A stretch of 64,000 nucleotides of DNA. It comes from an uncultured Isosphaeraceae bacterium. Lineage in GTDB: Bacteria; Planctomycetota; Planctomycetia; Isosphaerales; Isosphaeraceae. Below, in pieces: positions 4,020 to 53,903 of the stretch (position 1 is its first letter; the number at the start of each line of letters is the position of its first letter). The notes beneath the pieces were generated by a model. The model ran no database searches. It had not been told where the DNA came from and worked only from the letters and a program-made list of their open reading frames with translations. The translations under genes and the position numbers were made by a program. The stretch is from the NCBI GenBank assembly GCA_945957605.1, contig CAMFLR010000001.1, forward strand, positions 1,178,001 through 1,242,000, in the 5' to 3' direction.

Positions 4020-6154
4020 GCTTTCTCGCTCCGCTCTATGCCCTGGGCGCTCTGGCGATCGCCGCTCCGCTTTTCTTTCATCTGATTCGCCGCACGCCCA
4101 GGGGCGAAATGCCGTTCAGTTCGCTGATGTTCCTCACGCCGTCGCCGCCCAAGGTGACGCGTCGGAGCCGGCTCGACGACTGGCTTTTACTCGCCCTCCG
4201 CGCTCTGGCACTGGTGCTGATCGCGTTCGCGTTCGCCCGCCCCTTTTTTCGACAACAAGCACTAGCCGATCCTGGCGACACACCTGGCCGACGCGTCGTT
4301 CTGCTCGTCGATACCAGCGCCAGTATGAGGCTCGCCGATCTATGGGCGAAGGCAAAAAAAATCGCGAGCGACGTGATCGAAACCGCCGATGCACGCGACA
4401 AACTCGCGCTCCTCGCCTTCGACAACCAGACGCGCATAATGCTCAGCTTCGAGGAATCCGCCACGCTCGATCCCGCCCGGCGCAAGGCGGTCGCGCTCGC
4501 ACGTCTGAACGAACTTGCTCCCACGTGGGGCGGAACACACCTCGGCCAGGCGCTCGTCGATGCGGTCTCTGCTGTTTCGGGCGGCAACGACGCCACTGGA
4601 TCGGCTGGGCACGTCCCGCGCCGTGTCATTCTCGTGAGCGACCTCCCGCGCGGAGCGCGACTCGACGAACTCGGCGGCCTCGAGTGGCCTTCCGACGTAA
4701 CTCTCGAACCGATGCGCGTCGCCGATCTCGGCTCGAACGCGGGGATTCATCCACTCGCCGACGCCGAACCAGAAACAGGCAAGAACAAATCGGCCGCCGA
4801 CAAAGGGCTTGGTCCCGATCGCCGCGTCGGAGTTTCCAACGACACCGCTTCACACAAGGACGCGTTCACACTTTCGTGGGTCGACGAGACCGGCAAAACC
4901 GTCGGCGATCCAATTTCCACATATGTTCCCGCCGGCGAAAGCCGCGTGGTCCGCGTTCCCCGACCCGTAAATACGAACCGCAAACGTGTCTCGCTGGTTC
5001 TGCAAGGTGACGACAGCGCGTTTGACAATACACTCGCGTTCGCCGATCCCATTCGCGATGAGGCAAATGTCGTCGCCCTTACAAACGACGCGGCCGACGA
5101 TCCTTCGGGTTCACTCTATTACTTGATGCGTGTTTTTCAGGACGATCCCAAGCGCGGTGTGAAGGTGAATGCTATCGCGACGAGCGCTTCGCTCTCGCTC
5201 GACCCTAGGGCGGTTTCGTTAGCAGTCGTTCTAGGCGAAACAAACGCCGAAAACGGCAGTCGGCTACGCGAGTACGCTCGCGCGGGCGGGACGGTGTTCG
5301 CGGTCGTCAATGGGCCTGGGTCCCTCGCCACAGTGGCGACGATTGCCGGCGTTGCACCTTTTGAGGCGGCGGAAAGCTCGAACAATCGGGACATGATGCT
5401 CGGCGAAATCGCTTTCGAGCATCCGCTGTTCGCTCCGCTCGCCGGACCACAATTCAACGATTTCACTAAGATCCGCTTTTGGAAACACCGTAAAGTCGCA
5501 GCCAATGCACTCGGCGAATCGCGCGTCATCGCACGCTTCGAAAACGGCGATCCCGCACTCATCGAAAAGACTGTAGGCAAGGGACGCTTATTGCTAATGA
5601 CAAGCAGTTGGCGGCCGGCCGACAGCCAGCTCGCGCGTTCGTCGAAGTTTGTTCCGTTGATGGCCGGCCTACTGGAATCGCGCGAGCGTCGCCCTGACAC
5701 CGACGCAATTTACACCATTGGCGATCGAATCCCGCTGCCCGCCTCAGTTGATCCCGCGATGAGTCTCACCATCCGAAAGCCCGACGGCAAATCATCTGCG
5801 GTCGCAAAAGGAGCGTCGGCATTCGAAGGAGCCGACCAACCTGGCGTTTACGTCGCCGATTTGAAGGGTGTTCCCTGGTCATTCGCAGTCAATCTCGACC
5901 CGGCCGAAAGCAAAACGTCGCCGCTGGCGGATGAAACGCTCGAACAGCTCGGCTGCCGGCTCGCAAGGTCTGAAATGGCGGCAGCAAATCCCGAAGAACT
6001 CAGGCAACTGCAAAACGCTGAGCTCGAAGGTCGCCAGAAGTACTGGCGGTGGCTGGTACTGGCGGCGGTCGCCGCATTGACCGTCGAAACCTGGCTGGCC
6101 GGGCGCCTCGCGCGTCCCCGGACGGTCCAAGCAGGGGAGGCCGTGTCGGCATGA
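4016..6154 (+). CDS. BatA-like VWA membrane protein (operon 1)
   Basis: 712 residues. The N-terminus has the aerotolerance BatA double-membrane layout: a hydrophobic helix at 3-25, a short loop, and a second helix at about 56-76. A VWA domain follows with the DTSAS metal site at 99-103. The long C-terminal part is beta-rich, and a final membrane helix lies near residues 676-700 (WRWLVLAAVAALTVETWLAG). The bulk of the protein should therefore face the periplasm. It is coupled to DUF58 and to the DUF4175-like gene by ATGA overlaps. The paralog in operon 2 is 24961-26973. Bat proteins have been linked to aerotolerance and envelope integrity, but no specific function can be read from this sequence. 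Confidence 0.9.
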   Translation: MSFLAPLYALGALAIAAPLFFHLIRRTPRGEMPFSSLMFLTPSPPKVTRRSRLDDWLLLALRALALVLIAFAFARPFFRQQALADPGDTPGRRVVLLVDTSASMRLADLWAKAKKIASDVIETADARDKLALLAFDNQTRIMLSFEESATLDPARRKAVALARLNELAPTWGGTHLGQALVDAVSAVSGGNDATGSAGHVPRRVILVSDLPRGARLDELGGLEWPSDVTLEPMRVADLGSNAGIHPLADAEPETGKNKSAADKGLGPDRRVGVSNDTASHKDAFTLSWVDETGKTVGDPISTYVPAGESRVVRVPRPVNTNRKRVSLVLQGDDSAFDNTLAFADPIRDEANVVALTNDAADDPSGSLYYLMRVFQDDPKRGVKVNAIATSASLSLDPRAVSLAVVLGETNAENGSRLREYARAGGTVFAVVNGPGSLATVATIAGVAPFEAAESSNNRDMMLGEIAFEHPLFAPLAGPQFNDFTKIRFWKHRKVAANALGESRVIARFENGDPALIEKTVGKGRLLLMTSSWRPADSQLARSSKFVPLMAGLLESRERRPDTDAIYTIGDRIPLPASVDPAMSLTIRKPDGKSSAVAKGASAFEGADQPGVYVADLKGVPWSFAVNLDPAESKTSPLADETLEQLGCRLARSEMAAANPEELRQLQNAELEGRQKYWRWLVLAAVAALTVETWLAGRLARPRTVQAGEAVSA

Positions 6155-9100
6155 GCAACGAACTTCGTCATGCGTTGGAACAGGTCGGCCGCCGCTTCCG
6201 GCGCGTCAATCTTGGCTTCGGCCTCGCGGCGTGCTGGGCAATCTGGGCGATCGTCGTCGCGTGCTGTGCGATTGCGACTCGTGGAAGCGTACCAAGCTTT
6301 GGTTTGCTGACAACACTCTCAATTCTCGCCGGCGTGTCGGCCCTCACGTGCCTGTTTCTCGGGCTGAGATCGGCACGAGACACGACCTGGATCGCCCGGC
6401 AAATCGAAGCCGCTCACCCGAGCCTGAATGCTGGCCTGCTCGCCGCGCTCGAAGAGGTGACAAAATCAGGCGGCCGACTTGGCTTCTTGCAGTCGACTGT
6501 CGTTCGCAACGCGCTCGATCATCGCCGCACCCACGGCTGGACCGACACCGTACCGACTCGTCGCATCCTCTCCGCCGATGCGCTTCATCTGGTTTCGTTC
6601 GTTGCTTTGGTCGCCGCATCGTTCTGGCTTGTCAGGCCGTCATTCGTTCAAGGTGCAAATGGCGAGTCTGGCGTTGAGGTAGCGAAGGGCGAATTACCTT
6701 CGATCACGGTCGATCCCGGAGACACCGAGGTCGAGCGTGGAGCGCCGCTTCTCGTCGTGGCTCGGTTCGATAAGGCCGTACCTGCCGAATCCTCGCTCGT
6801 TTTGGAAGATGGCAAAACGCCCGCGCCGCGCCCGATGACGCGAAGCCTGGAAGATCCTGCCTTCGGAGCTCGTGTCGAGTCGGTCGAAGCCGACATGAAT
6901 TATCGCGTGACCTTCGATGGCGGCTCCTCTCCCACCTACAAGGTCAAGGTCTTCGAATACCCCGAATTGCGGCGTGCCGACGCCCGGCTCGTCTTCCCGC
7001 AATACACATCGCTCGACACGAAATCGGTCGAAGACGTCCGCCACGTCAACGCCGTCGAAGGAACCGAACTTACACTCATCGGCCGCCTCAACAAAGAGGT
7101 CGCCATCGCCCAGTTGGTCGACGAAAAAGCGGAGAAGATCATCCCGCTCACTCCCGATACGACGTCCCCCAACGAACCAATTTACAAGGCGACTTGGACG
7201 CTCGCGGAGTCGGGACGTTACAAGGTAAGGCTCGTCGACAAGCAAGGCCGACCCAACAAGCTGAACACCGAAATCGTCGTAAACGTATCGAAGAACAAGC
7301 CGGCGGCGGTAGCGGTGACAGTGCCTTCGCACGACGTTCGCGTTTCGCCCGTTGAAGAACTCACTCTCAAGGCCAACGCCGAAGATGACTTCGGCGTGAT
7401 CCGGCGCGGCTTGACCTACAGCGTCACTGGCGGCGAACCGAACGAGTTGGAGTTGGGAAAGGTCGATTCCAAAACTCAGGCGCCCAAGAAAGTACAGGAT
7501 GAATACATCCTGGCGTTCGAGTCGCTCAAAGCCGCGCCCGACCAGCTCGTCACCTATTTCTTCTGGGCCGAAGATCTTGGCCCCGACGGCAAGCCCAGAC
7601 GCACGTCGGGCGATATGTTTTTCGCCGAGGTTCGCCACTTTGAGGAAATCTTCCGGCAAGGTGAAGCTCCTCCCGGCGGCTCCGAAAGCGAGCAACAGGA
7701 AGGTCAGCAAGGCAACGCCCGCGAGGCTGGCGAACTTTCGGACTTGCAAAAAGAGGTCATCAACGCGACCTGGAAGCTGATCCGCCGCGAAACCAGCGCG
7801 AAGCCCACCGACACCTTTGCAGCGGACGCCGAGGCGATTCGGCAAGGACAAGCATCGGCGATCGAGAAAGCCGAAGCGCTGGGAGAGAAGCTCACCGACG
7901 AGGTTTCCAAGGCAAACCTCAAAACTGCGCTGACGTTCATGAAAGACGCTGAGGCGAAGCTCGCCGCGGTTGCCAAAAACGCCTCGGTCCCAGGCCTCAA
8001 TCCAGCCCTTTCGGCCGAGCAAGCGGCATCACAAGCACTCCTGAAATTGCGTGCCCGCGAGTTCGACGTTGTGAAGCGGAATCAACGTCAGCAGCAAAGC
8101 AGTCGATCGTCGTCGTCGGGCAGTCCCTCGCAGCGTCAGCTCAATCAACTCGAGCTTTCGAACGACGAGAACCGCTACGAGCAGCAAAAATCGGCGAAGG
8201 CTCAGGAGCCTACAACCAAACGCGAGCAGGAGCAGGCCGAGACTCGACAGGTGCTCAACCGGCTCAAAGAACTGGCCCAGCGTCAGGCCGATTTGAACGC
8301 GCGACTCAAGGAGATGCAGTCGGCCCTCGACGCGGCCAAGACACCCGAAGCCCGCGAAGAACTTCAACGTCAACTCAAGCGGCTTCGCGAGCAAGAGCAG
8401 CAAATCCTCCGCGACACCGACGAGCTCCAGGAGCGGATGGAACGCGAGGAAAATCGCGACCGCATGGCCGAGGCGCGAGAGCAAGTCGAACAGAGCCGCG
8501 AGAACATTCAGAAGGCGGGTGAAGCGATCGAGCAAAACAAGCTCTCGCAGGCCGTCACGGCAGGGACGCGTGCAGGCCGACAGCTCGATCAGACTCGCGA
8601 CGACTTGCGCAAGCAAGCCTCGAACAAATTCTCCGAGGAAATGACCGACTTGCGCGACGAAGCTCGCAAGCTCGACACCAAACAGGAAGAGCTGACCAAG
8701 AAGCTCGAAGAGCAAACCAAGGAACGGCCCAACAAACTTCGCGACGACGGCGATCGCGAACAGACAAAGCGCGATCTTCAGCAGCAGCAAACCGGTCTCG
8801 ACAAGCTCCTCGATCGCATGCGTTCAACCGTGACCTCCGCAGAGGATTCCGAGCCGTTGCTCGCGAAGAATCTCTTCGATGCCGTGAACAAGACGAACGA
8901 GCAAAAGGTGCCCGAGGCGCTAAAAGCCGCCGAGCAACTCGCCGAAGTCGGAATCGCTCCTGAAGCCGCAGCCGCCTCGCGACACGCCTCGAAGGGACTC
9001 GACGACTTGCGGCAAGGCGTCGAAAAGGCAGCCCAAAGCGTGCTCGGCGACGAGACCGCTGCCCTTAAACGCGCGCAGGCCGAGCTTGAAAATCTCGCTC

Positions 9101-31377: not shown

Positions 31378-31896
31378 ATGAATAGCGACCTGCAAACAGA
31401 ACGATTCATCCAGAGTCTGACCGACCACCAAGGGCGGCTCTTCGTTTACCTCGTATCGATGCTCGGTGACGTGCATGATGCGCGTAACGTGCTTCAGGAA
31501 ACGAACATGGAGCTCTGGCGCAAGTCGGATCAGTTTATTGATGGAACCGACTTCGCCGCCTGGTCGCGGAAGATTGCGCACTTCAAGATTCTCGCTTTTT
31601 TGCGCGACAAGAAGCGCGATCGCCATATGTTCGACGAAGCCCTCATCAACCAACTCGCCCAGCGTCCACAATCGATCGACGACGACGGAGAGCTTCACGT
31701 CGCACTCCGGCATTGTCTCGCTGCGCTGCCCGATCGGCTTCGAGTTTTGATCAGCGGCCGTTACGGCTCCGACCATTCGATTCGCCATCTCGCACAGCGA
31801 ATTGGCAAGTCTGAAGCGGCAACAAAGGTTACATTGTCACGGGTCCGGAAACTGTTGATGGGCTGCATCGAAAAGCAGTTGGCGGCCGGCTCATGA
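31378..31896 (+). CDS. ECF-type RNA polymerase sigma factor
   Basis: 172 residues, the usual ECF length. Region 2 is visible near residues 15-50 (GRLFVYLVSMLGDVHDARNVLQETNMELW). Region 4 is near 125-165 (LISGRYGSDHSIRHLAQRIGKSEAAT, then VRKLLMGCIEKQL). It differs from the two kinase-linked sigma factors in this window (40260 and 53289) and is of the type found beside FecR-LamG proteins in planctomycetes and verrucomicrobia. Its stop overlaps the start of the FecR gene as ATGA, so the FecR protein is the likely membrane-bound regulator of this sigma factor. Confidence 0.92.
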   Translation: MNSDLQTERFIQSLTDHQGRLFVYLVSMLGDVHDARNVLQETNMELWRKSDQFIDGTDFAAWSRKIAHFKILAFLRDKKRDRHMFDEALINQLAQRPQSIDDDGELHVALRHCLAALPDRLRVLISGRYGSDHSIRHLAQRIGKSEAATKVTLSRVRKLLMGCIEKQLAAGS

Positions 31897-33614
31897 CAAA
31901 TGACTCTTCTCGACATGACGAACTCTTCGAACTGCTCTCCGACCTGGTCGACAGCGAGTTGCCGCCGGCCAGGGCGGAACGGCTTAGAGACTTGCTGCGC
32001 GACGATCCCGAGGCCCAAGATTTGTACCTGGAGTTCATGAAACTCCACGCCCACCTCCACCTCGCTTACGACTCGGGTGCAGGCGCGGCGGACATGCCGG
32101 GCGGGTCGTCGATGCCGCTCAAGCCGTTGTCGATCTCACCGTTCGAAGCGGCCGAAAGTGGCGCGATCGCCGATGAACTGGATATCAACGCAGGCGCACA
32201 TCCAGCCGGACGATTCTGGCCTTCCCCGCTTGTGATCGGCTGGGCTCTGGCTGGACTTTTCGCGATCGCTCTCCTGATTGTCTCCCGCCCTGTCGAGCCG
32301 CGGAAATCTCAGGTCGCAACTCGCCCGCTGGAAAAAGTCGAGCTGTCGAATGGCCTGGCGGTCGTCGTCAAGGCAACGGGAGCACGGTGGAAGACAAGCG
32401 GCGGTCGAGTTCCCAAAGAAGGTGACCTTCTGCCGCAGTGTCGGTTGGACGTCGCCGAAGGTCGTGTGATGCTGTCGATGCTCAGCGGCGTGACGGTGAT
32501 CGTCGAGGGGCCGGCCGATATCGAATTACTGTCGATGGATCGGATCACCTGCCACCGCGGTAAGCTGCGGACGAAGGTGCCCGAGGGCGCTGAAGGCTTC
32601 GTTGTAACCGGACCCAATTCGGCGGTGATCGACCTTGGAACCGAGTTTGGCATCAACATCAATCAGGACGGCAAGTCGCGTGGCAAGGTCTTCAAGGGTG
32701 AAGTTGAAGCTGCACTGATTGGCACGACTGGTTCGATGCGACGAAGTCAGATCATCAAGGAGGAGAGTGAAGCGTTCGAGATCGATCCCGGCACGGGTTT
32801 CATCGGTCCGCTTCGAGCCCCCGAAGAGTTCGTCACGACAACAAACTCCGACCTCGCTCCGTTGGTCCTGGCTCCCGGTTATCGCGACTCTATTCTGGCA
32901 GCCCACCCGAAGTGCTACTGGCGATTCGATTCGCTGAGGGACGGCAAGATTGCCAACGAAGTGACGGATGCAGCGCCACTTCTTGCGATAGGGCCCATCA
33001 AGCTCGCCGGAACGTCGAATGATAACCGTTGCGTTGTCTTCGGGTCTGGCGAGAACGATCAGTATCTTCGGATGGACGGCTCCTGGAAGCCGGACAAATC
33101 GCGCGGATTCGCGATCGAGCTTTGGTTCCAGTCAGACATGATCGGCCACGCCGCGCTCGCGGGCTTGCTAGCTCCGAAAGACACCACGAACCACCTCACG
33201 CTCTTGGAGCTGACATCATCGAGCCGGCGGACGCTTTTCCCGCCTGCGTCGGTGCGGTCGCTCTATCGCTGGCCAGCCAGTCGAGGCGGCGGAGAGAACG
33301 TCTTTTCGAGCAACATCTATATCCCTTATCGCTGGCATCACGTTGTGACGCAGCTTGCCGCCGATCGCATGGAACTCTATCTCGACGGCGTGTTGCAGAC
33401 GTCACAGCCCATTGAACGTCGCGGCTCGGAGGTCTGCCAGTTTTTGCTGGGCCGACTGAGCACGCTCACGGGAAGCGACACCATTCATCATACCGGCTAC
33501 CGACGTCCGTTCGTCGGCTTGATGGATGAGGTCGCTCTTTACGATCGCCCTCTCTCCTCTGAAGAAGTTCGTGCCCACCTCCACTTCGCGGCCCGTCCGG
33601 GTCGTGCTGACTGA
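31893..33614 (+). CDS. FecR-domain transmembrane regulator with LamG-like domain
   Basis: 573 residues. Residues 1-60 are a cytosolic helical part similar to anti-sigma N-termini ([35 protein letters not shown]). One membrane helix lies at 111-131. Outside, a FecR-like beta domain spans about 190-270 ([30 protein letters not shown]). A concanavalin/LamG jellyroll lies at about 340-570 ([46 protein letters not shown]). This is the standard trans-envelope sensor layout paired with an ECF sigma factor: the LamG part could bind glycan outside and pass the signal through FecR. The ligand is not predictable. Confidence 0.9.
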
Positions 33615-33829
33615 CCGTTAGGATCCCCCACGGTTTTCTTCGCTCGGCCCGCTTGAGGTCCGAGTCAGGGGCCGTCGTCGAAATTTCCCGTTTGCTTGAG
33701 AAGTCTCGAGGACCGAGACCAAGGCGTGCCTACGGACATTGCCAGAGATGCGGCTCCTCGTTTTCCGTCACCGTCCCTCAGATTGACCAGGTTGAAAGCG
33801 TTTCATTCCCGAATTGCCAGGAGAAATTC

Positions 33830-34852
33830 ATGCGTCGCCGCGGTTTCACATTGATCGAATTGCTCGTCGTCATCGCCATCATCGCTGTTCTTATCGCCTT
33901 GCTGCTTCCCGCCGTCCAGGCGGCCCGCGAGGCCGGTCGGCGCGCTCAGTGCGTTAACCAGCTCAAGCAAATCGGCCTCGCGATTCACAACTACGAAAGC
34001 TCGATCGGCTCGCTGCCCTGGGGTGAAGGCCGTTACGGGCTAAACACCTCCCCTTCGTCGCTGCTGCTGATGCTGCCCCAACTCGAGCAGTCCTCGCTCT
34101 ACAACACGTTCAACTTCTCGTCGCTGATCAACAACGGCCTCTGGAACTCGCAAAACTTGGTCAACTCGACCGGCCAGTTGACGACCGTAAACACCTTTAT
34201 CTGCCCGTCCGATATCAATCGGATCAGCCTGGCAACGAACGGATTCCCGAACGGTAACCCAGGCGCGAACAACTACGCCGCCAACGCGGGCAACGTCGCG
34301 GCAAGCTTCAACACCGCGGCAATCAGCGCCACCAGCGGCCCCTTCCCTGGCAACACCGGCGTCTGCATCAAGCTCGCCTTCATTATCGACGGCACGTCCA
34401 ACACCGCCGCCTTCTCCGAGATCGTCAAGGGCGTCGGCGGTTTCGCCAATAACCTCGACAACCTCAGCCCATCAGCAACGCCAGTCAAGCTTTCGGCAGC
34501 GAGCAGCGGCATCCCCCAAACCGACTACAACTCGTGCAAGGCGGGAGTTCCTTCACTGGTGACCGCTAACACGGGCGGCTTCCCGCTGGGCGCCTGCTGG
34601 TGGTGGGGCCGGTCGGGCCAGAACCGGTTTAACGGCGTCATGACGCCCAACGGATTTAGCTGCGACTACGCCGGCGACAACTCCGATAGCGACGCCGACG
34701 CGATCACTGCGGGCAGCCGCCACTCAGGGGTTGTCAACGTCTTGATGATGGACGGTTCAGTTCGCGGAGTGAAGAACTCCGTAAACCCCGTCACTTGGTG
34801 GGCGATCTGCTCGATGTCCGGCGGCGAAGTCGTTTCCGCCGACGCATATTGA
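33830..34852 (+). CDS. DUF1559 protein with type IV prepilin-like N-terminus
   Basis: 340 residues from ATG 33830, with AGGAG 6 nt upstream. An in-frame extension to 33653 is rejected because it would bury the prepilin signal. The N-terminus is [20 protein letters not shown], with the processing site after Gly5 and Phe as first mature residue. The DUF1559 body follows, with the C-terminal signature [19 protein letters not shown]1559 is hugely expanded in planctomycetes and resembles type II secretion pseudopilins; individual roles are not known. It lies 215 bp after the FecR gene, probably within the reach of the linked ECF sigma factor. It is followed by two hairpins. Confidence 0.93.
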
Positions 34853-47541: not shown

Positions 47542-50190
47542 TCAGCGATCCGCCATCGAGGGAGTCGCCCGCGATCGATCCTTGAGAATATCGTCAACTC
47601 TGCTCGCCGAAAGCAGCGTGTCGCGATGCTCTGGTCCAAGAACCCGGCGCTGCGTTTCGAGGCAGGGACGAAGCAGCGTCTCGGCCTCATCAAGCTTCCC
47701 TTGCGCACGCAAAATCGATGCGAGGGTGCTAATCGCATACAGAGTTGATGGATGCTCTGCGCCGAAGGTTTGACGACGCCCGTCGACGCTTTCGCGAATC
47801 AGTGGCTCGGCCTCGTTGATCCTTCCTTGCCTGTTGAGGACATGGCCAAGGTTGTAGAGCGCGGTGACCGTGTCGGGATGAGCCTTGCCCAGAATCTTGC
47901 GATCGGTCGCGAGGCATTCGCGAAAAATCTTCTCCGCCTCGACGTATTTTCGCTGTTTTTCGAGCGCGGCCCCAAGGTTGTTGAGCGTTGAAAGCAGGTC
48001 GGGATGCTCCGGCCCCTTATCAGCCCGCTGTTCATCAGCCAGCCGTCGATAAAGGGTCTCGGCTTCCTCGTTACGCCCCTGTTGCAGGAAGACATCGCCG
48101 AGGTTGAAGAGTGCCGAAAAGATAATATCAGCGTCGGGTTTCTCGGCCTGGCGGGCATCGACGAGATAGCTGCCATAGAGTTCCTCGGCTTCTTTGAGCC
48201 GATCTCTGGCGCGATAAACTCCTGCGAGATACTCGGCGGCACGCAACGACGTTTTGTGCGAGGGCCCCAAAATGCGGCGAGCATCGGGTAATGCGCGAGC
48301 AAGAATTGGCTCGGCCTCATCCCAACGTCCTAGATGCGAAAGCAAATGCCCATGCTCCGCGGCCGCTTCCAGTCGACCAGCCTCATCGCGATCGCCGAGA
48401 CTTTCGAAAAGCTTCTGAGCTGCGCGATAATGTGATTCACTCTTGATGTATTCGCCCAGGCCGTGATACGCGCGGCCAATGGCGAGTTGAATCGTCGCTT
48501 CAACTTCAGGCTGGCCGGCAAACGACGATCCCACAGTCATCGCCGCGCGATCGAGCGCCTCCGACAGGGTCAGCCGATTTGCAGCCGGGTTGCTTGCGGG
48601 CTCTGCGCGATCGAGCAATCCCTCGATCAGAAATCGGTTGATCGCCGCAGCCCTCGCTGCCTGGCCTCGCGCCTCCCGCTCGGCGACGAGCAAATACTGC
48701 TTCTGCCGCACCTCTTTGCGCCAGCTCCAGGTGATGGCCGCGAAGGCGATGACAATGGTCAGTCCCAGCGCCGCGATCAATCCAGCCTGCAACGGCTTGC
48801 GGCGGCACCACCGCCAGCCCCGAACCATAGGCCCCACAGGACGCGCAACGATCGGTCGCCCATCGAGAAATCGCTCGAGATCCTCGGCAAGCTGCCAGGC
48901 GGTCTCATATCGACTCGAAGGATCCTTCGCCATCGACTTGGCGACGATTGTGGCCAGATCGAACGGCACCGCCGAGTTCAAGCGTCTCAGTGGTGTCGGT
49001 TCTTCCTCGAAAATCCTGCGGAAGATCTCCTGCCGATCGCCGCCTGAAACTGCAGGCTGCAATGCGAGCATCTCATAAAGCGTTGCGCCCAGTGAATAAA
49101 TATCGCTGCGACGATCGACCATCGCCCGCCTGCCCGACGCCTGCTCTGGACTCATGTACCTGAGCGTGCCGGGTAGGTCGCCGGTCACAGTCATACCCGC
49201 ATCGCCCTGCACGTTGGCCATCCCGAAGTCGGCCACCCATAACCCGCCGCGAAGGTCAATCAGAAGGTTAGCCGGCTTGATATCGCGATGCACAATCCCC
49301 TGGTCATGCGCGTACCCGAGCGCCTCGGCTGCCTGCAGACCCATCGTTGCCACAGCGCGGAGGTAGGCTCGAGTCCGAACTGATGGATCGCCCGAATTCT
49401 CGGAGTGATCGACGTCGGATTTCAGTGGCGCATCGGCGCGGCTTCCTTCAATGTCGCGCCGAAACGAGGTTCGTCCCGAAAGCATACCGGCCGCGAGTGC
49501 GCCGAGTCCTTCCGATGGCGGATTGCCCGCAACGACTTCGCCGTGAACAAGGTGGCGCAACTCGCCGATCAAATCAGCCAGGCTCCCGCCCTCGATGAAT
49601 TGCATCGCATAATATGGGACACCGCGCACCAGGCCGACGTCGTGCACCGGCACGATTCGCGGATGCTGCAGCCAGCCAGCCACTTGCGCTTCGAGTTGAA
49701 ACCGCTGCAGGGCGCGGGGATCCATGACTGACGATTGCGGCAGGATCTTGAGCGCGACGCGTCGCTTCAGCGCGGCCTGCTCTGCCTCGTAAACAACGCC
49801 CATCCCGCCACGGCCGACTTCGCGAACGATTCGGAAGTTGCCGAAAACCGCCCGGCCTTCTTCATCGCGGTCGCCGTCGGGTAATTCGCTAGCTTCGTCA
49901 GCAAGCTCGGCGAGACTACGCATAGCTGGAAGCAAACTACGAACGGCATCGGCCCATTCGGGATGCTCCTCGGCGATCTTCTCGACGTCGACCGCCTCAC
50001 CACCCAGAATGCGTTTCGTGGCCTCCTCGACCAGATCGACAAGCACCGGATCGAGCCCCTGCAGGCCCAATAGCGATTCCGACAGACCCGAGCGAGCTGC
50101 ACGCCAAGTCGATGAAGCCGTCGCCGGCCGCGCTTCATCGCGCGACCCCGAGGCGAGCCCAGAATCATTGGGGTCGTCAGGATGAAGCAT
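47542..50190 (-). CDS. Transmembrane Ser/Thr kinase with TPR repeats
   Basis: 882 residues. A pre-kinase module (about 50-97: VDLVEEATKRILGGEAVDV, EEHPEWADAVRSLLPAM) precedes an intact Hanks-type kinase: GRGGMG at 126-131, Lys148, HRDIKPAN near 300 and ADFGMAN near 318. A single membrane helix lies at about 460-480 (GLIAALGLTIVIAFAAITW). TPR repeats of the kinesin-light-chain type run from about 580 to 860 (TLYRRLADEQ, LSTLNNLGAALEKQRKYVEAEKI-type units cut by periodicity). No sigma gene lies directly upstream, unlike the WD40 kinase. The start has only weak ribosome-binding sequence. It converges on the WD40 lipoprotein gene with 21 bp between stops. Confidence 0.92.
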   Translation of the reverse strand: MLHPDDPNDSGLASGSRDEARPATASSTWRAARSGLSESLLGLQGLDPVLVDLVEEATKRILGGEAVDVEKIAEEHPEWADAVRSLLPAMRSLAELADEASELPDGDRDEEGRAVFGNFRIVREVGRGGMGVVYEAEQAALKRRVALKILPQSSVMDPRALQRFQLEAQVAGWLQHPRIVPVHDVGLVRGVPYYAMQFIEGGSLADLIGELRHLVHGEVVAGNPPSEGLGALAAGMLSGRTSFRRDIEGSRADAPLKSDVDHSENSGDPSVRTRAYLRAVATMGLQAAEALGYAHDQGIVHRDIKPANLLIDLRGGLWVADFGMANVQGDAGMTVTGDLPGTLRYMSPEQASGRRAMVDRRSDIYSLGATLYEMLALQPAVSGGDRQEIFRRIFEEEPTPLRRLNSAVPFDLATIVAKSMAKDPSSRYETAWQLAEDLERFLDGRPIVARPVGPMVRGWRWCRRKPLQAGLIAALGLTIVIAFAAITWSWRKEVRQKQYLLVAEREARGQAARAAAINRFLIEGLLDRAEPASNPAANRLTLSEALDRAAMTVGSSFAGQPEVEATIQLAIGRAYHGLGEYIKSESHYRAAQKLFESLGDRDEAGRLEAAAEHGHLLSHLGRWDEAEPILARALPDARRILGPSHKTSLRAAEYLAGVYRARDRLKEAEELYGSYLVDARQAEKPDADIIFSALFNLGDVFLQQGRNEEAETLYRRLADEQRADKGPEHPDLLSTLNNLGAALEKQRKYVEAEKIFRECLATDRKILGKAHPDTVTALYNLGHVLNRQGRINEAEPLIRESVDGRRQTFGAEHPSTLYAISTLASILRAQGKLDEAETLLRPCLETQRRVLGPEHRDTLLSASRVDDILKDRSRATPSMADR

Positions 50191-50496: not shown

Positions 50497-51627
50497 CTAT
50501 TTCGCAGCCTTGGGCTCAATTTCCGCGATGAGTTTGTTCACGGTTTCTTCGAGTCGCTCGCCACGCAACTCCTTGCCGCGAATCACGCCGTTGGCATCAA
50601 GGACGAAAATGGTTGGATAGTGATCGATGTCGAGCGAATCGATGATCTTTCCCGACGATCCATTCCACCAGTGTGTCCAGGGCATCTTCTCGCGACTGAG
50701 AAAGCTCGTAAGCGTTTCTTTTTCCTCATCGACGCTGATGCTGATCAGCGCGAAGGGCTTATCCTTCAAACGCTCGACCATCTCACGCTCATGAGGAATC
50801 ATCTCGCGGCACGGCCCGCACCAGGTCGCCCAGATGTCGAGCACAACCACTTTACCGCGATAATCCGAGAGCTTCGTTTCCTTGTCGTCGAGTGTCCGGC
50901 CGACGAGCGCGGGCGCCGGCTTGCCGATTTCGAGGTCGGGAAAACGATCGCCATATGTCTCTCGGGCCACCTTTTGATACGATTTCAGGTCAGCCTTACC
51001 ACGCTCCGCACGCGACAGAATCGAGTCGAGGTACGCTTTCCCTTCGTTCGCCTCGACGTCCTTGCGGAGCGACGGGTCCGCCTCGAGCCGTTCGGCCATT
51101 TTGACCAACGCCTCGGTGTGTTGAATCAGGGCTTTGTACGCAACGACTCGAACCTCGCGATCGGGGCTTTGCGCGATGACCTCGTGAACCATCGCCCGCG
51201 ATTCGTCGTCCGGCGATATGACCAGGCGAGGGACGATTCGCTTCATCCGCGGGTCTTTGAGGTAAGTCGTGCGCAGCAGCTTCAGCGTACGCTGCCGAGT
51301 CGGCGGATTCGTAAAGCTTCCGTTCAAAGCATTTTCCACAGCCTCGAAGGCATGCGAATCGTCCGGGTGCTGTTCAGCGAATTCAAGGAACTGCTGCGCA
51401 AACTTCGCCGGCGGGCTTTCTTCGAAGGGAATGTAGAACCGCTTCCCTTCGGCTTTCGCCTTGTCGAAGCGCTTCTTGGCCACGTCGCGAAACGCGAGTT
51501 CTTCAGCGGCAAGCGCCTTCTTGATCGACGCGAAGTCCGCCGCAGGTTGCGACGGCTTCGTGTCCTGTGCCTGCGCGACAGTCGCGGCGAATATCACGAG
51601 AAGCGGTGTCATCATATGTCGCCGCAT
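50497..51627 (-). CDS. TlpA-like thioredoxin-domain secreted protein
   Basis: 376 residues from ATG 51627, where a signal peptide begins (MRRHMMTPLLVIFAATVAQA); the longer reading from 51774 overlaps the DUF1559 gene. The first two thirds (about 30-230) are helical, with a HEAT-like flavour. The C-terminal 140 residues are a TlpA/AhpC-type domain with LDIWATWCGPC (active CGPC near 267-270), FALISISVDEE and DHYPTIFVLD (cis-Pro loop). It probably reduces disulfides outside the cytoplasm. It is the last gene of the ECF sigma/kinase-module/lipoprotein/DUF1559 unit, 52 bp after DUF1559. Confidence 0.87.
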   Translation of the reverse strand: MRRHMMTPLLVIFAATVAQAQDTKPSQPAADFASIKKALAAEELAFRDVAKKRFDKAKAEGKRFYIPFEESPPAKFAQQFLEFAEQHPDDSHAFEAVENALNGSFTNPPTRQRTLKLLRTTYLKDPRMKRIVPRLVISPDDESRAMVHEVIAQSPDREVRVVAYKALIQHTEALVKMAERLEADPSLRKDVEANEGKAYLDSILSRAERGKADLKSYQKVARETYGDRFPDLEIGKPAPALVGRTLDDKETKLSDYRGKVVVLDIWATWCGPCREMIPHEREMVERLKDKPFALISISVDEEKETLTSFLSREKMPWTHWWNGSSGKIIDSLDIDHYPTIFVLDANGVIRGKELRGERLEETVNKLIAEIEPKAAK

Positions 51628-51679: not shown

Positions 51680-52726
51680 TCAATACTGGTCCGCGCTGAT
51701 GACTTCGCCGCCGTTGCGCGTCGACAGCTTCTGGTAGACGCCAATCTTGGCCCCCGCCGCGAAGGTAAAGCCATAAACCGGCCCTGCGCTCGCGCCCGTC
51801 GGCATGCCGTTGGTCACTGGTGACGCGATTGTCCAGGAGTCGATCGAATCCTTGATGAAGTGCACCGAGCCGTCGCAGAAGGCCGCGTTCACTCCACCGG
51901 GGTGGAAGCTCATGGCGTTGAACGTCGCGTATGTGTTGAGTGCGTTGTTACCGGGGTCGTTCACTGGATCAGAATAACGCCGCGCCCAGTTCGGCGGGAA
52001 CCGGCTCTCAGTGCTCCATTCGCCCGGATCGCTCGCCGTCCACTGGTGATAGAACGGCTGGCTCGAAGGACTGAGGAAGCCCTGGCCGTTTTCGATGAAC
52101 ATCATCGTGCTGCTCGTACCGTCGGTCACCGTCGCAATGGTCACCCGCCCGCCGGCGATGATCGCACCCTGGCCGTAAGCGAGAATTTGCGGATCGGTCG
52201 TGAAAACTCCGGGCGTTGGCATTGTGAGACCGAAGGCACTCGCCGTCCCCACAACTCCCGAGTAGTGGTTGTGGAATTCCTTGAAAGTCGGCGGTCCGAA
52301 TTCCAGTGCGTTTGATGCGAATGCCGAGGGATCGCTCGGGCAGAATAGCGCCGAGAATCCCGCGCCCGGGATTGTCCAGTTGCTCGGGTCGTAGAAGGCG
52401 TTCGAGAAGTTCACTGCGTTGAAGGTCGCGGTCTGCTCGAGGAACTGCGTCATGCGCACCAGTACGGGAACGCCAAGGTTTCCGCCGCCGATTCCGTTAC
52501 AGAGCATCCCTGGAGGATACATGCCGTTCGCGGACTCGTAATTGACGGCTGCCAGCGCGATTTGCTTGAGATTATTTGTGCATTGAATCCTGCGTGCCGC
52601 CTCTCGCGCCGACTGAACGGCCGGCAAGAGCAACGCAATCAGCACGGCGATGATGGCGATCACCACCAAAAGTTCGATCAGCGTAAAGCCTCGACCTCGA
52701 GGCAAGCGAACCTCAGCGCGGATCAT
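51680..52726 (-). CDS. DUF1559 protein with type IV prepilin-like N-terminus
   Basis: 348 residues, with AAGGA 7 nt before the ATG. The prepilin leader MIRAEVRLPRGRG is followed by [20 protein letters not shown]; cleavage is expected after Gly13. The DUF1559 body ends with the FHPGGVNAAFCDGSVHFIKD signature. It is the second DUF1559 gene in the window and the second lying in an operon that begins with an ECF sigma factor. It follows the small lipoprotein by about 100 bp, and the two are probably expressed together. Role unknown beyond resemblance to pseudopilins. Confidence 0.93.
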   Translation of the reverse strand: MIRAEVRLPRGRGFTLIELLVVIAIIAVLIALLLPAVQSAREAARRIQCTNNLKQIALAAVNYESANGMYPPGMLCNGIGGGNLGVPVLVRMTQFLEQTATFNAVNFSNAFYDPSNWTIPGAGFSALFCPSDPSAFASNALEFGPPTFKEFHNHYSGVVGTASAFGLTMPTPGVFTTDPQILAYGQGAIIAGGRVTIATVTDGTSSTMMFIENGQGFLSPSSQPFYHQWTASDPGEWSTESRFPPNWARRYSDPVNDPGNNALNTYATFNAMSFHPGGVNAAFCDGSVHFIKDSIDSWTIASPVTNGMPTGASAGPVYGFTFAAGAKIGVYQKLSTRNGGEVISADQY

Positions 52727-52825: not shown

Positions 52826-53026
52826 TCAGTGCGAGTTTGAGCCCGGGCGAATCGTCTTTCCTCCTTTTTGCGAGGTCTTCATGTAGCTGACGTTCTGGCT
52901 CGGCCTGGGCAAATCGATCGTCCCTGCATCGCGGGCCGCTTCGTTGCTGCAACCGGCGAAACCAACAATCACAGCAATCAGCGTGACCATCGAAAAAACG
53001 CCAGAGACGCTTCGAGTCATTCTCAT
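52826..53026 (-). CDS. Small lipoprotein
   Basis: 66 residues. A hydrophobic leader ends in the lipobox FAGC followed by Ser, so the mature lipoprotein has only about 40 residues and is polar with a Lys/Gly/Ser-rich tail. The start overlaps the stop of the kinase-module gene as ATGA, which supports it as a real gene. Short lipoproteins of this kind are common next to DUF1559 genes in planctomycetes. No family was recognised, and the function is unknown. Confidence 0.75.
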   Translation of the reverse strand: MRMTRSVSGVFSMVTLIAVIVGFAGCSNEAARDAGTIDLPRPSQNVSYMKTSQKGGKTIRPGSNSH

Positions 53027-53292
53027 AACACACTCTCTCCGAAGGAACCGGGACTTTCAGGATGGGATTCGGCTTGAGACTCGCGGGCGACCGTGCGGCC
53101 GAGTTCGATGAGATGTTCCATCGTTGGGAGGAGTTCGCGGAGAGTGCCGGCGCAATCAGGGTGCTGTGCAGCGTACGCGTCGGGTTCGATCACCTCTCCT
53201 GCCTGCAATCGTCTCGTAATCTCTTCAGTCAGCTCGGCCAGCAAAGGATTCGTTTCGTCTCCTCGTCCAGACGAGTCACTTCCTTCCGTCAT
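53023..53292 (-). CDS. Stand-alone pre-kinase module, ECF-sigma linked
   Basis: 89 residues without signal peptide or membrane segment. It matches the N-terminal module that precedes the kinase domain in both full kinases of this window. The shared pattern is L..L.(E/D).(I/T).R...GE....(A/E).......(T/V).(A/R).LLP.(M/I)..L.EL, for example EEITRRLQAGEVI, AAQHPDC and RELLPTMEHLIEL here. The kinase domain itself is missing. ATGA overlaps join it to the ECF sigma gene upstream and the lipoprotein downstream, exactly where the WD40 kinase sits relative to its sigma factor. It is either a reduced kinase or an independent sigma-binding module. Confidence 0.8.
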   Translation of the reverse strand: MTEGSDSSGRGDETNPLLAELTEEITRRLQAGEVIEPDAYAAQHPDCAGTLRELLPTMEHLIELGRTVARESQAESHPESPGSFGESVL

Positions 53293-53903
53293 CCGTTGCC
53301 CTCCAACCGACCGCGCATGTGAATCAACGCACGAAGTAGCCGCGCTTTGACCGCGCCTTCGGTAATCCCCAGCACCTCGGCAATTTCCGCGGCGCCAAGC
53401 TGTTCGAGATAACGCATCACCAGCACTTCGCGATCGCGCGCCGAGAGTGATGCAAGAGCCGACATGACCTGATCGCGACGTTCCTTGCGCGAGAGCCGAT
53501 TGCTCGGGCTGGTGTCGTTTGCCATGAACCGGCGAATGAGCTCACGCGACGAGCCGTCGAGACGCTCATCGGCATGGTCTTCGCGGTTGATGCTTCGACG
53601 TTGCGAAACGATGTGCCGCCGGTGCGTGTCGATCACACGCTCGCCGGCAAGCTGACGCAGCCACATCAGGAACGGCAGCGGCCGGTCGCGCAAATAGTCG
53701 TCGAGACGCTTCGAAGCATCGGCGAGGGTTTCCTGCACGACGTCCGAAGCGTCAACCCGTGAGGCGAGGCGACGATCAAGCCGCGACGCAACCATTCGCC
53801 TCAGGTTCGCTCGATAAAGCTCCAGCAGTTCCTGGCGAGCAGCGCCGTCCCCCTGCCGTGCTCGATCGATCAACTCCTGAGCTATGTTGGCCGTCCCGGT
53901 CAT
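53289..53903 (-). CDS. ECF sigma factor of the kinase-linked group
   Basis: 204 residues, with GAGGAG 8 nt before the ATG. Region 2 has SRVDASDVVQETLADAS and LDDYLRDRPLPFLMWL. Region 4 has ALASLSARDREVLVMRYLEQ followed by AAEIAEVLGITEGAVKARLL. It is closely related to the sigma at 40260-40910, which is followed by a full kinase, whereas this one is followed only by the 89-residue kinase-type module. It heads a five-gene leftward unit that ends in the TlpA-like gene. The region to its right is a divergent promoter area. Confidence 0.93.
   Translation of the reverse strand: MTGTANIAQELIDRARQGDGAARQELLELYRANLRRMVASRLDRRLASRVDASDVVQETLADASKRLDDYLRDRPLPFLMWLRQLAGERVIDTHRRHIVSQRRSINREDHADERLDGSSRELIRRFMANDTSPSNRLSRKERRDQVMSALASLSARDREVLVMRYLEQLGAAEIAEVLGITEGAVKARLLRALIHMRGRLEGNG

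Follow-up and report, generated by a model that had tools for sequence, protein, structure and literature searches.

In the genome of the Isosphaeraceae bacterium studied here we found 105 kinases, 42 of which have an ECF-like sigma factor gene just upstream, and the question at stake is how each of these kinases finds the right sigma factor. One gene cluster in the window, by which we mean the whole 64,000-nucleotide stretch of DNA that was analysed, puts this question in a tractable form. Directly behind an ECF sigma factor gene it encodes an 89-residue protein, P0001, that resembles the segment which the cluster's kinase carries ahead of its kinase domain. We call this segment the module and its separate copies free modules. 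An initial annotation had suggested that the module is the sigma-partnering part of such kinases and that the short protein, thought to replace a kinase, could be a minimal anti-sigma factor or adaptor.

Results

A free-standing module protein behind an ECF sigma factor

The reading frame of P0001 (53023..53292, minus strand) is real, as is the ATGA by which its start overlaps the stop of the sigma factor gene (53289..53292, minus strand), and its own stop overlaps the start of the next gene, P0006, by a further ATGA (53023..53026, minus strand). A spurious frame in GC-rich DNA was rejected because substitutions are concentrated at synonymous sites when this frame is read, but not when either of the other two is. 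The profile that we built for the module, which is about 50 residues long, was seeded by P0001 and kinase N-termini and places P0001 among the pre-kinase modules (E = 4.8e-22); P0001 is itself one of the seeds, and the independent check is its 42% identity to residues 47-96 of the kinase P0004 (E = 9e-12). The E-values together with the conservation rule out chance similarity. The initial annotation had staked its idea on such profile similarity, and on this point the idea survived. The module core of P0001 comprises residues 16-65 (53098..53247, minus strand), and an AlphaFold2 model from a 106-row alignment predicts three helices (residues 16-30, 37-43 and 48-74; mean pLDDT 79.4, about 90 in the core; pTM 0.55).

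P0001 lacks a kinase domain, as originally described (no Pkinase match in Pfam), and is thus not itself a Ser/Thr kinase. It matched nothing over the cut-off in Pfam, nothing in NCBIfam and nothing in a library of defence systems. With no anti-sigma family among its matches in Pfam or NCBIfam, it does not qualify by sequence as a class I anti-sigma domain (ASDI), and it has no transmembrane or sensor part. The fold of these domains is a three-helix bundle with a fourth helix. PDB fold searches with a shallower and a deeper model of P0001 gave no significant match; RsiW was matched once by the shallower model (Z 2.6, 63 aligned, rmsd 5.3) and not by the deeper one, and we gave this match no weight.

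The surrounding cluster retains its kinase

The sigma factor P0002 (204 aa; 53289..53903, minus strand) has ECF regions 2 and 4, with Pfam matches to Sigma70_r2, Sigma70_r4_2 and Sigma70_ECF over the cut-off; it matches TIGR02984 with E = 1.2e-53, yet falls slightly under the cut-off of that family. At the usual acidic DAED motif most ECF sigma factors have an acidic residue that is needed for RNA polymerase binding, and here P0002 carries Ser53 within DASDVVQE. A pattern search finds serine at the position of the acid in 115 of the 131 related sigma ORFs, or 116 when P0002 is included; the figure is for the 131-ORF set as a whole, the exact motif pattern giving no string for eight of the 19 sigmas of the clade described below. 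According to the available parts of the published descriptions, Ser or Thr at this position marks the phospho-site class of ECF sigma factors (PMC8103513), and kinase-regulated members have another motif in place of the acidic DAED, its charge being restored by phospho-Ser or phospho-Thr (PMC8103513, PMC8999054). The two sigma regions, the replaced acid and a kinase gene in the same cluster, that of P0004, are the marks of a kinase-regulated ECF sigma system.

All genes of the cluster lie on the minus strand. P0002 and P0001 are followed by P0006, a small lipoprotein-like protein (66 aa; 52826..53026) whose translation has a hydrophobic N-terminus and FAGC; by P0007, a DUF1559 pilin-like protein (51680..52726; Pfam SBP_bac_10, E = 7.8e-45, and N_methyl, E = 2.4e-8); by a TlpA/ResA-like thioredoxin protein (50497..51627; Pfam AhpC-TSA and Redoxin), for which we picked the ATG at 51627 as the start of an ORF listed as extending to 51774; and, after about 300 bases, by the cognate kinase P0004 (47542..50190). 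The latter consists of the module (residues 48-96; 49903..50049, minus strand; profile match 64.4 bits), a kinase domain, a hydrophobic segment and a TPR part (Pfam Pkinase and TPR). P0004 shares 81% identity over 334 columns with the Singulisphaera GP187 kinase whose gene immediately precedes that of the sigma orthologue. The suggestion that P0001 replaces a kinase therefore has to be abandoned: the cognate kinase is still present in the cluster and is coinherited with the sigma factor.

Very small proteins resembling P0006 occur in many loci of the P0002-sigma type, in relatives often with G[ST]ID[VL]P after the cysteine; they are possibly sensors or cargo. Elsewhere in the window (31378-34852, plus strand), a second ECF sigma gene is joined by an ATGA overlap to the gene of P0009, which is followed by a DUF1559 gene. 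P0009 has a FecR match slightly under the cut-off and Laminin_G_3, and the sigma-partner-DUF1559 order is thus the same with another partner.

The module had also been assigned to the WD40 kinase P0003 (36823..40263, minus strand), behind a sigma factor, P0005 (40260..40946, minus strand; DPSDVVQE), regarded as nearly identical to P0002 in its signature motifs. The junction is indeed of the same kind, the P0003 and P0005 ORFs overlapping by four bases, and the motifs are common to both sigma factors, but their overall identity is 48%. Similarly, the claim about the module held for P0004 but not for P0003, whose N-terminus is a marginal match: E = 0.17 by BLASTP against P0001, 6.4 bits and E = 1.8 with the module profile, nothing at E<=10 with a broader module profile, and E = 0.0046 only when the search was limited to the 105 kinase N-termini.

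Free modules in related genomes

The window genome belongs to the family Isosphaeraceae, together with Singulisphaera, Tautonia and Aquisphaera. We found 11 free modules from 8 of 45 genomes of the family (the window and loci L135, L126, L125, L130, L123, L124, L127, L128, L199 and L200); nine of these and their loci were compared with one another. Every one of them starts on an overlap with the sigma gene (ATGA in nine, GTGA in two), a coupling to the ECF gene of the kind expected of ASDI, and the sigma factors belong to one clade throughout. The order in relatives is kinase, sigma, free module and then usually the lipoprotein-like gene, DUF1559 and TlpA, with the kinase gene immediately ahead of that of the sigma factor in nine of the ten relatives' loci (9/11 overall). 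In the window the kinase is downstream, at the far end of the cluster, and in L199 there is no kinase within the stretch examined. All 18 clade kinases examined carry a module of their own.

Outside the family, a scan of 397 genomes of the class, with at most 13 candidates scored per genome, yielded five short frames, none of them genuine: in L218, L220, L221 and L222 a contig end truncates the frame, which continues into a kinase domain, and L219 is a broken frame whose surrounding stretch contains a sigma and a kinase fragment as well. Some frames are broken up in draft assemblies, and within the family the short frames L131, L133, L137, L160, L201 and L202 were likewise set aside, being either contig ends or kinases divided between two frames. 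One of these, L160 of Singulisphaera GP187 (4026-7132), has the module and the kinase domain in two overlapping frames, which may reflect a frameshift, a misassembly or an alternative route to a detached module. At two further loci (L161 in genome G033 and L164 in G024) a clade sigma is followed after a four-base overlap by a protein of 280-286 aa that, judged by its sequence, looks like an RpoD-type sigma factor, giving a sigma-sigma pair.

In a tree of 42 sigma factors, the 19 of this locus type fall on one side of a branch (support 100/98) and 23 with an adjoining kinase on the other. Nine of the 19 are followed by a free module, two by a relic of one and two by the RpoD-like sigma, and six lack the free module. 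In a kinase tree, the kinases of the clade likewise form a group apart from 12 further sigma-paired kinases encoded in the own genome (SH-aLRT 92). Four changes of the free state are needed on the sigma tree, which is compatible with one gain and several losses. Of the relics, that of Tautonia sociabilis (L138) has kept the ATGA start while the module has decayed, and that of Aquisphaera insulae (L129) no longer has the overlap word; both loci retain sigma and kinase despite the loss. Where the free module is intact, its core is under purifying selection: in six locus pairs, which are not independent and of which the distant ones approach synonymous saturation, dN/dS is 0.11-0.33 over the 50-codon core and 0.38-0.83 over the flanking parts of those genes.

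Kinases that carry the module

The module is associated with sigma factors of the P0002 class. Among the 105 kinases of the own genome, 12 lie beside such sigma factors, and 11 of these have a strong and one a weak module match. With Singulisphaera acidiphila (G027; 51 kinases examined, the search having listed 75 matches), where 8/8 are strong, the tally is 19 strong and one weak out of 20; the modules used to build the profile had come to light through P0001 and its sigma class, so that its sensitivity is highest near that class. Beside other ECF sigma factors the own genome has 30 kinases, of which ten have an Hx3Cx2C N-terminus (one also with a weak module match), four a strong and six further ones a weak module; the remainder comprises four of an ERxxFLxxAC type and six without a pattern. 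Without a sigma gene upstream there are 63, and here 56 show nothing, one has a strong module (P0004), four a weak module and two Hx3Cx2C. The association of sigma and module over the 105 kinases is significant (Fisher's test, p = 1.6e-7). In S. acidiphila, kinases beside other ECF sigma factors (13) divide into three strong, four weak, three Hx3Cx2C and three with nothing, and those without a sigma (30) into five strong, two weak, three Hx3Cx2C and 20 with nothing. In a genome of another family, the 33 kinases examined, from the loci of the 30 best matches, included none beside a P0002-class sigma; seven adjoin other ECF sigma factors (four Hx3Cx2C, one strong and one further weak module) and 26 have no sigma (one strong, one weak).

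The Hx3Cx2C N-termini exceed the cut-off of zf-HC2 in 3 of the 6 scanned. In the accessible text of one study, Hx3Cx2C across helices 2 and 3 is the mark of zinc class I anti-sigma domains (PMC7406223). The occurrence of such N-termini beside ECF sigma factors means that an anti-sigma-like domain can occupy the pre-kinase position. No homology between these N-termini and the module was found, a profile comparison giving a probability of 0.4%. Examples just downstream of ECF sigma genes in the own genome (L241, L252, L266 and L286) are, from their sequences, possible anti-sigma/kinase fusions. A further pre-kinase type, ERxxFLxxAC-like, also adjoins ECF sigma factors (for example L257 and L270; the one scanned had no Pfam match).

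Module sequences follow the sigma factor

Module sequences track the sigma factor more closely than they track their own kinase domain. Over 57 adjacent sigma-kinase pairs, the correlation of distances was 0.62 between sigma and module, 0.40 between sigma and kinase domain and 0.39 between kinase domain and module. The partial correlation of sigma and module given the kinase was 0.55 (p = 0.001), that of the module and its own kinase domain given the sigma 0.19. As controls, ten 50-column windows of the kinase reached at most 0.42 (raw) and 0.26 (partial), and the 50 most variable kinase columns 0.44 and 0.31. The 57 pairs come from a set of 61, in which the pattern of the sigma 2.2 motif is visible in 55 sigma factors, thinned by sigma distance to 57, 47 and 37; the result stands at 47 and 37.

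Adjacency hitchhiking is disfavoured as the source of this signal, because the correlation persists in the 17 loci whose kinase gene precedes the sigma gene, an arrangement in which no part of the kinase is more distant from the sigma gene than the module. In these loci the correlation of sigma and module was 0.76 (partial 0.63, p = 0.0005; leave-one-out partial values 0.58-0.70, with 0.65 when the L159 row was left out), that of kinase and module given the sigma was -0.05, and kinase windows gave 0.38-0.73; the raw value for the whole kinase domain with the sigma, 0.75, equals that of the module. The nine free-module loci alone do not separate the partners, with all distance correlations at 0.80-0.92. 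Correlated distances of this kind are not proof of contact, as other shared constraints can give them.

Discussion

P0001 is best read as a predicted small soluble sigma-binding protein, both the binding and its inhibitory sign being what we infer from the sequences. We lean slightly towards the view that it is a detached pre-kinase module, that the module is the sigma-recognition part of the kinase, and that the free copy restrains the phospho-activated sigma factor and competes with kinase docking. The original proposal of a sigma-partnering module and a minimal anti-sigma factor or adaptor is thereby upheld in part: the association with one sigma class and the sigma-module correlation beyond the kinase domain speak for it, but the comparisons with anti-sigma sequences and folds were negative or without a convincing match. 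Moreover, the module can sit on kinases without a sigma gene upstream (5/30 in G027), which counts against a sigma partner.

A working model would run as follows. P0001 would be translated on the sigma messenger through the ATGA overlap and would probably bind the sigma factor co-translationally. P0002 is expected to be idle until the kinase phosphorylates Ser53, since this residue stands where most ECF sigma factors have the acid for RNA polymerase binding. The free module would hold or shield the sigma factor, in competition with the same module on P0004. Stimulated through its outer TPR part, the kinase would displace the free module and phosphorylate Ser53, and the phosphorylated sigma factor would then transcribe the cluster with its lipoprotein, DUF1559 protein and thioredoxin protein as the presumed regulon.

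Both the anatomy and the sigma-module correlation would look the same if the free module aided activation, binding the sigma factor and presenting it to the kinase or protecting it from degradation; a protein made in step with the sigma factor could well be a chaperone. We regard such a positive adaptor as unlikely, given that the kinase already has its own module (in all 18 clade kinases) and that the relic lineages retain sigma and kinase without an intact free module. The retention of both in L138 and L129 after loss of the module fits a buffer better than an essential activator. The relics, together with the absence of the module from six other clade loci, could also suggest that P0001 is a functionless leftover of a truncated kinase gene that is slowly eroding. 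We consider this very improbable, since 8 genomes have 11 intact copies between them and all of these retain the junction, and selection on the core (dN/dS 0.11-0.33, against 0.38-0.83 in the flanks) disfavours it.

Alternatively, the target could be the kinase. The module might serve the kinase in self-association or docking, in which case a free copy might bind the kinase's module and poison or tune the enzyme, as the presence of the same module on the kinase of the same cluster would allow. To us this seems less probable than a positive adaptor: the module tracks the sigma (partial correlations 0.55-0.63) and not the kinase domain (0.19 and -0.05), modules occur mostly on kinases beside P0002-class sigma factors, and it is the sigma gene, not that of the kinase, to which the free copy is coupled.

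Viewed against known systems, the sigma-restraining module that we favour has several partial counterparts. In PknS-EcfK of Xanthomonas citri and PknT-EcfP of Vibrio parahaemolyticus, whose sigma factors are kinase-activated members of ECF43, a kinase adjoins an ECF sigma factor without the acidic DAED, as here (PMC13147305, PMC8999054). As far as the accessible text goes, PknS phosphorylates EcfK and resembles P0004 as a membrane kinase with an outer TPR part and a helical segment of about 83 residues before the kinase domain; this 83-residue segment, predicted to be helical, is invisible in the solved structure and its role is unknown (PMC13147305). The PknS chain 9eed was absent from the module-profile matches to PDB sequences at E<=10. 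Unlike in the PknS and PknT systems, the sigma factor here, which is of a planctomycete class, has Ser in DASD, and the pre-kinase module is also encoded on its own. With the class I anti-sigma domains (RsiW, ChrR, RskA and RseA) P0001 shares its small size, its predicted helical make-up and the coupling of its gene to that of an ECF sigma factor; it differs in having no sequence match to them and no transmembrane or sensor part, and the weak RsiW match was not repeated. The FecR-like protein beside the other ECF sigma factor of the window (31378-33614) shares the order of ECF gene, ATGA overlap, partner gene and DUF1559 gene, but that partner is a large protein with a FecR match under the cut-off and Laminin_G_3, not a kinase module. 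In the literature, searched mainly by titles and abstract beginnings and with few subscription papers, we found no free-standing pre-kinase module and no sigma-binding role for one.

The free module points to how planctomycetes match dozens of kinases to the right sigma factor. With a selected free copy coupled to the sigma gene, sigma choice becomes directly testable with an 89-residue protein, and a sequence code of module versus sigma could be swapped between pairs. More speculatively, and with more doubt than confidence, we propose that the pre-kinase domains of planctomycetes form an exchangeable sigma-recognition set, comprising this module, the zinc anti-sigma-like Hx3Cx2C domain and others, and that one such domain of the Isosphaeraceae is now a free, co-translated anti-sigma factor competing with its own kinase for one phospho-activated sigma factor. 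If this is true, such kinases would in effect be anti-sigma factors with a catalytic domain, and the free modules would represent a new anti-sigma protein family and a two-competitor switch.
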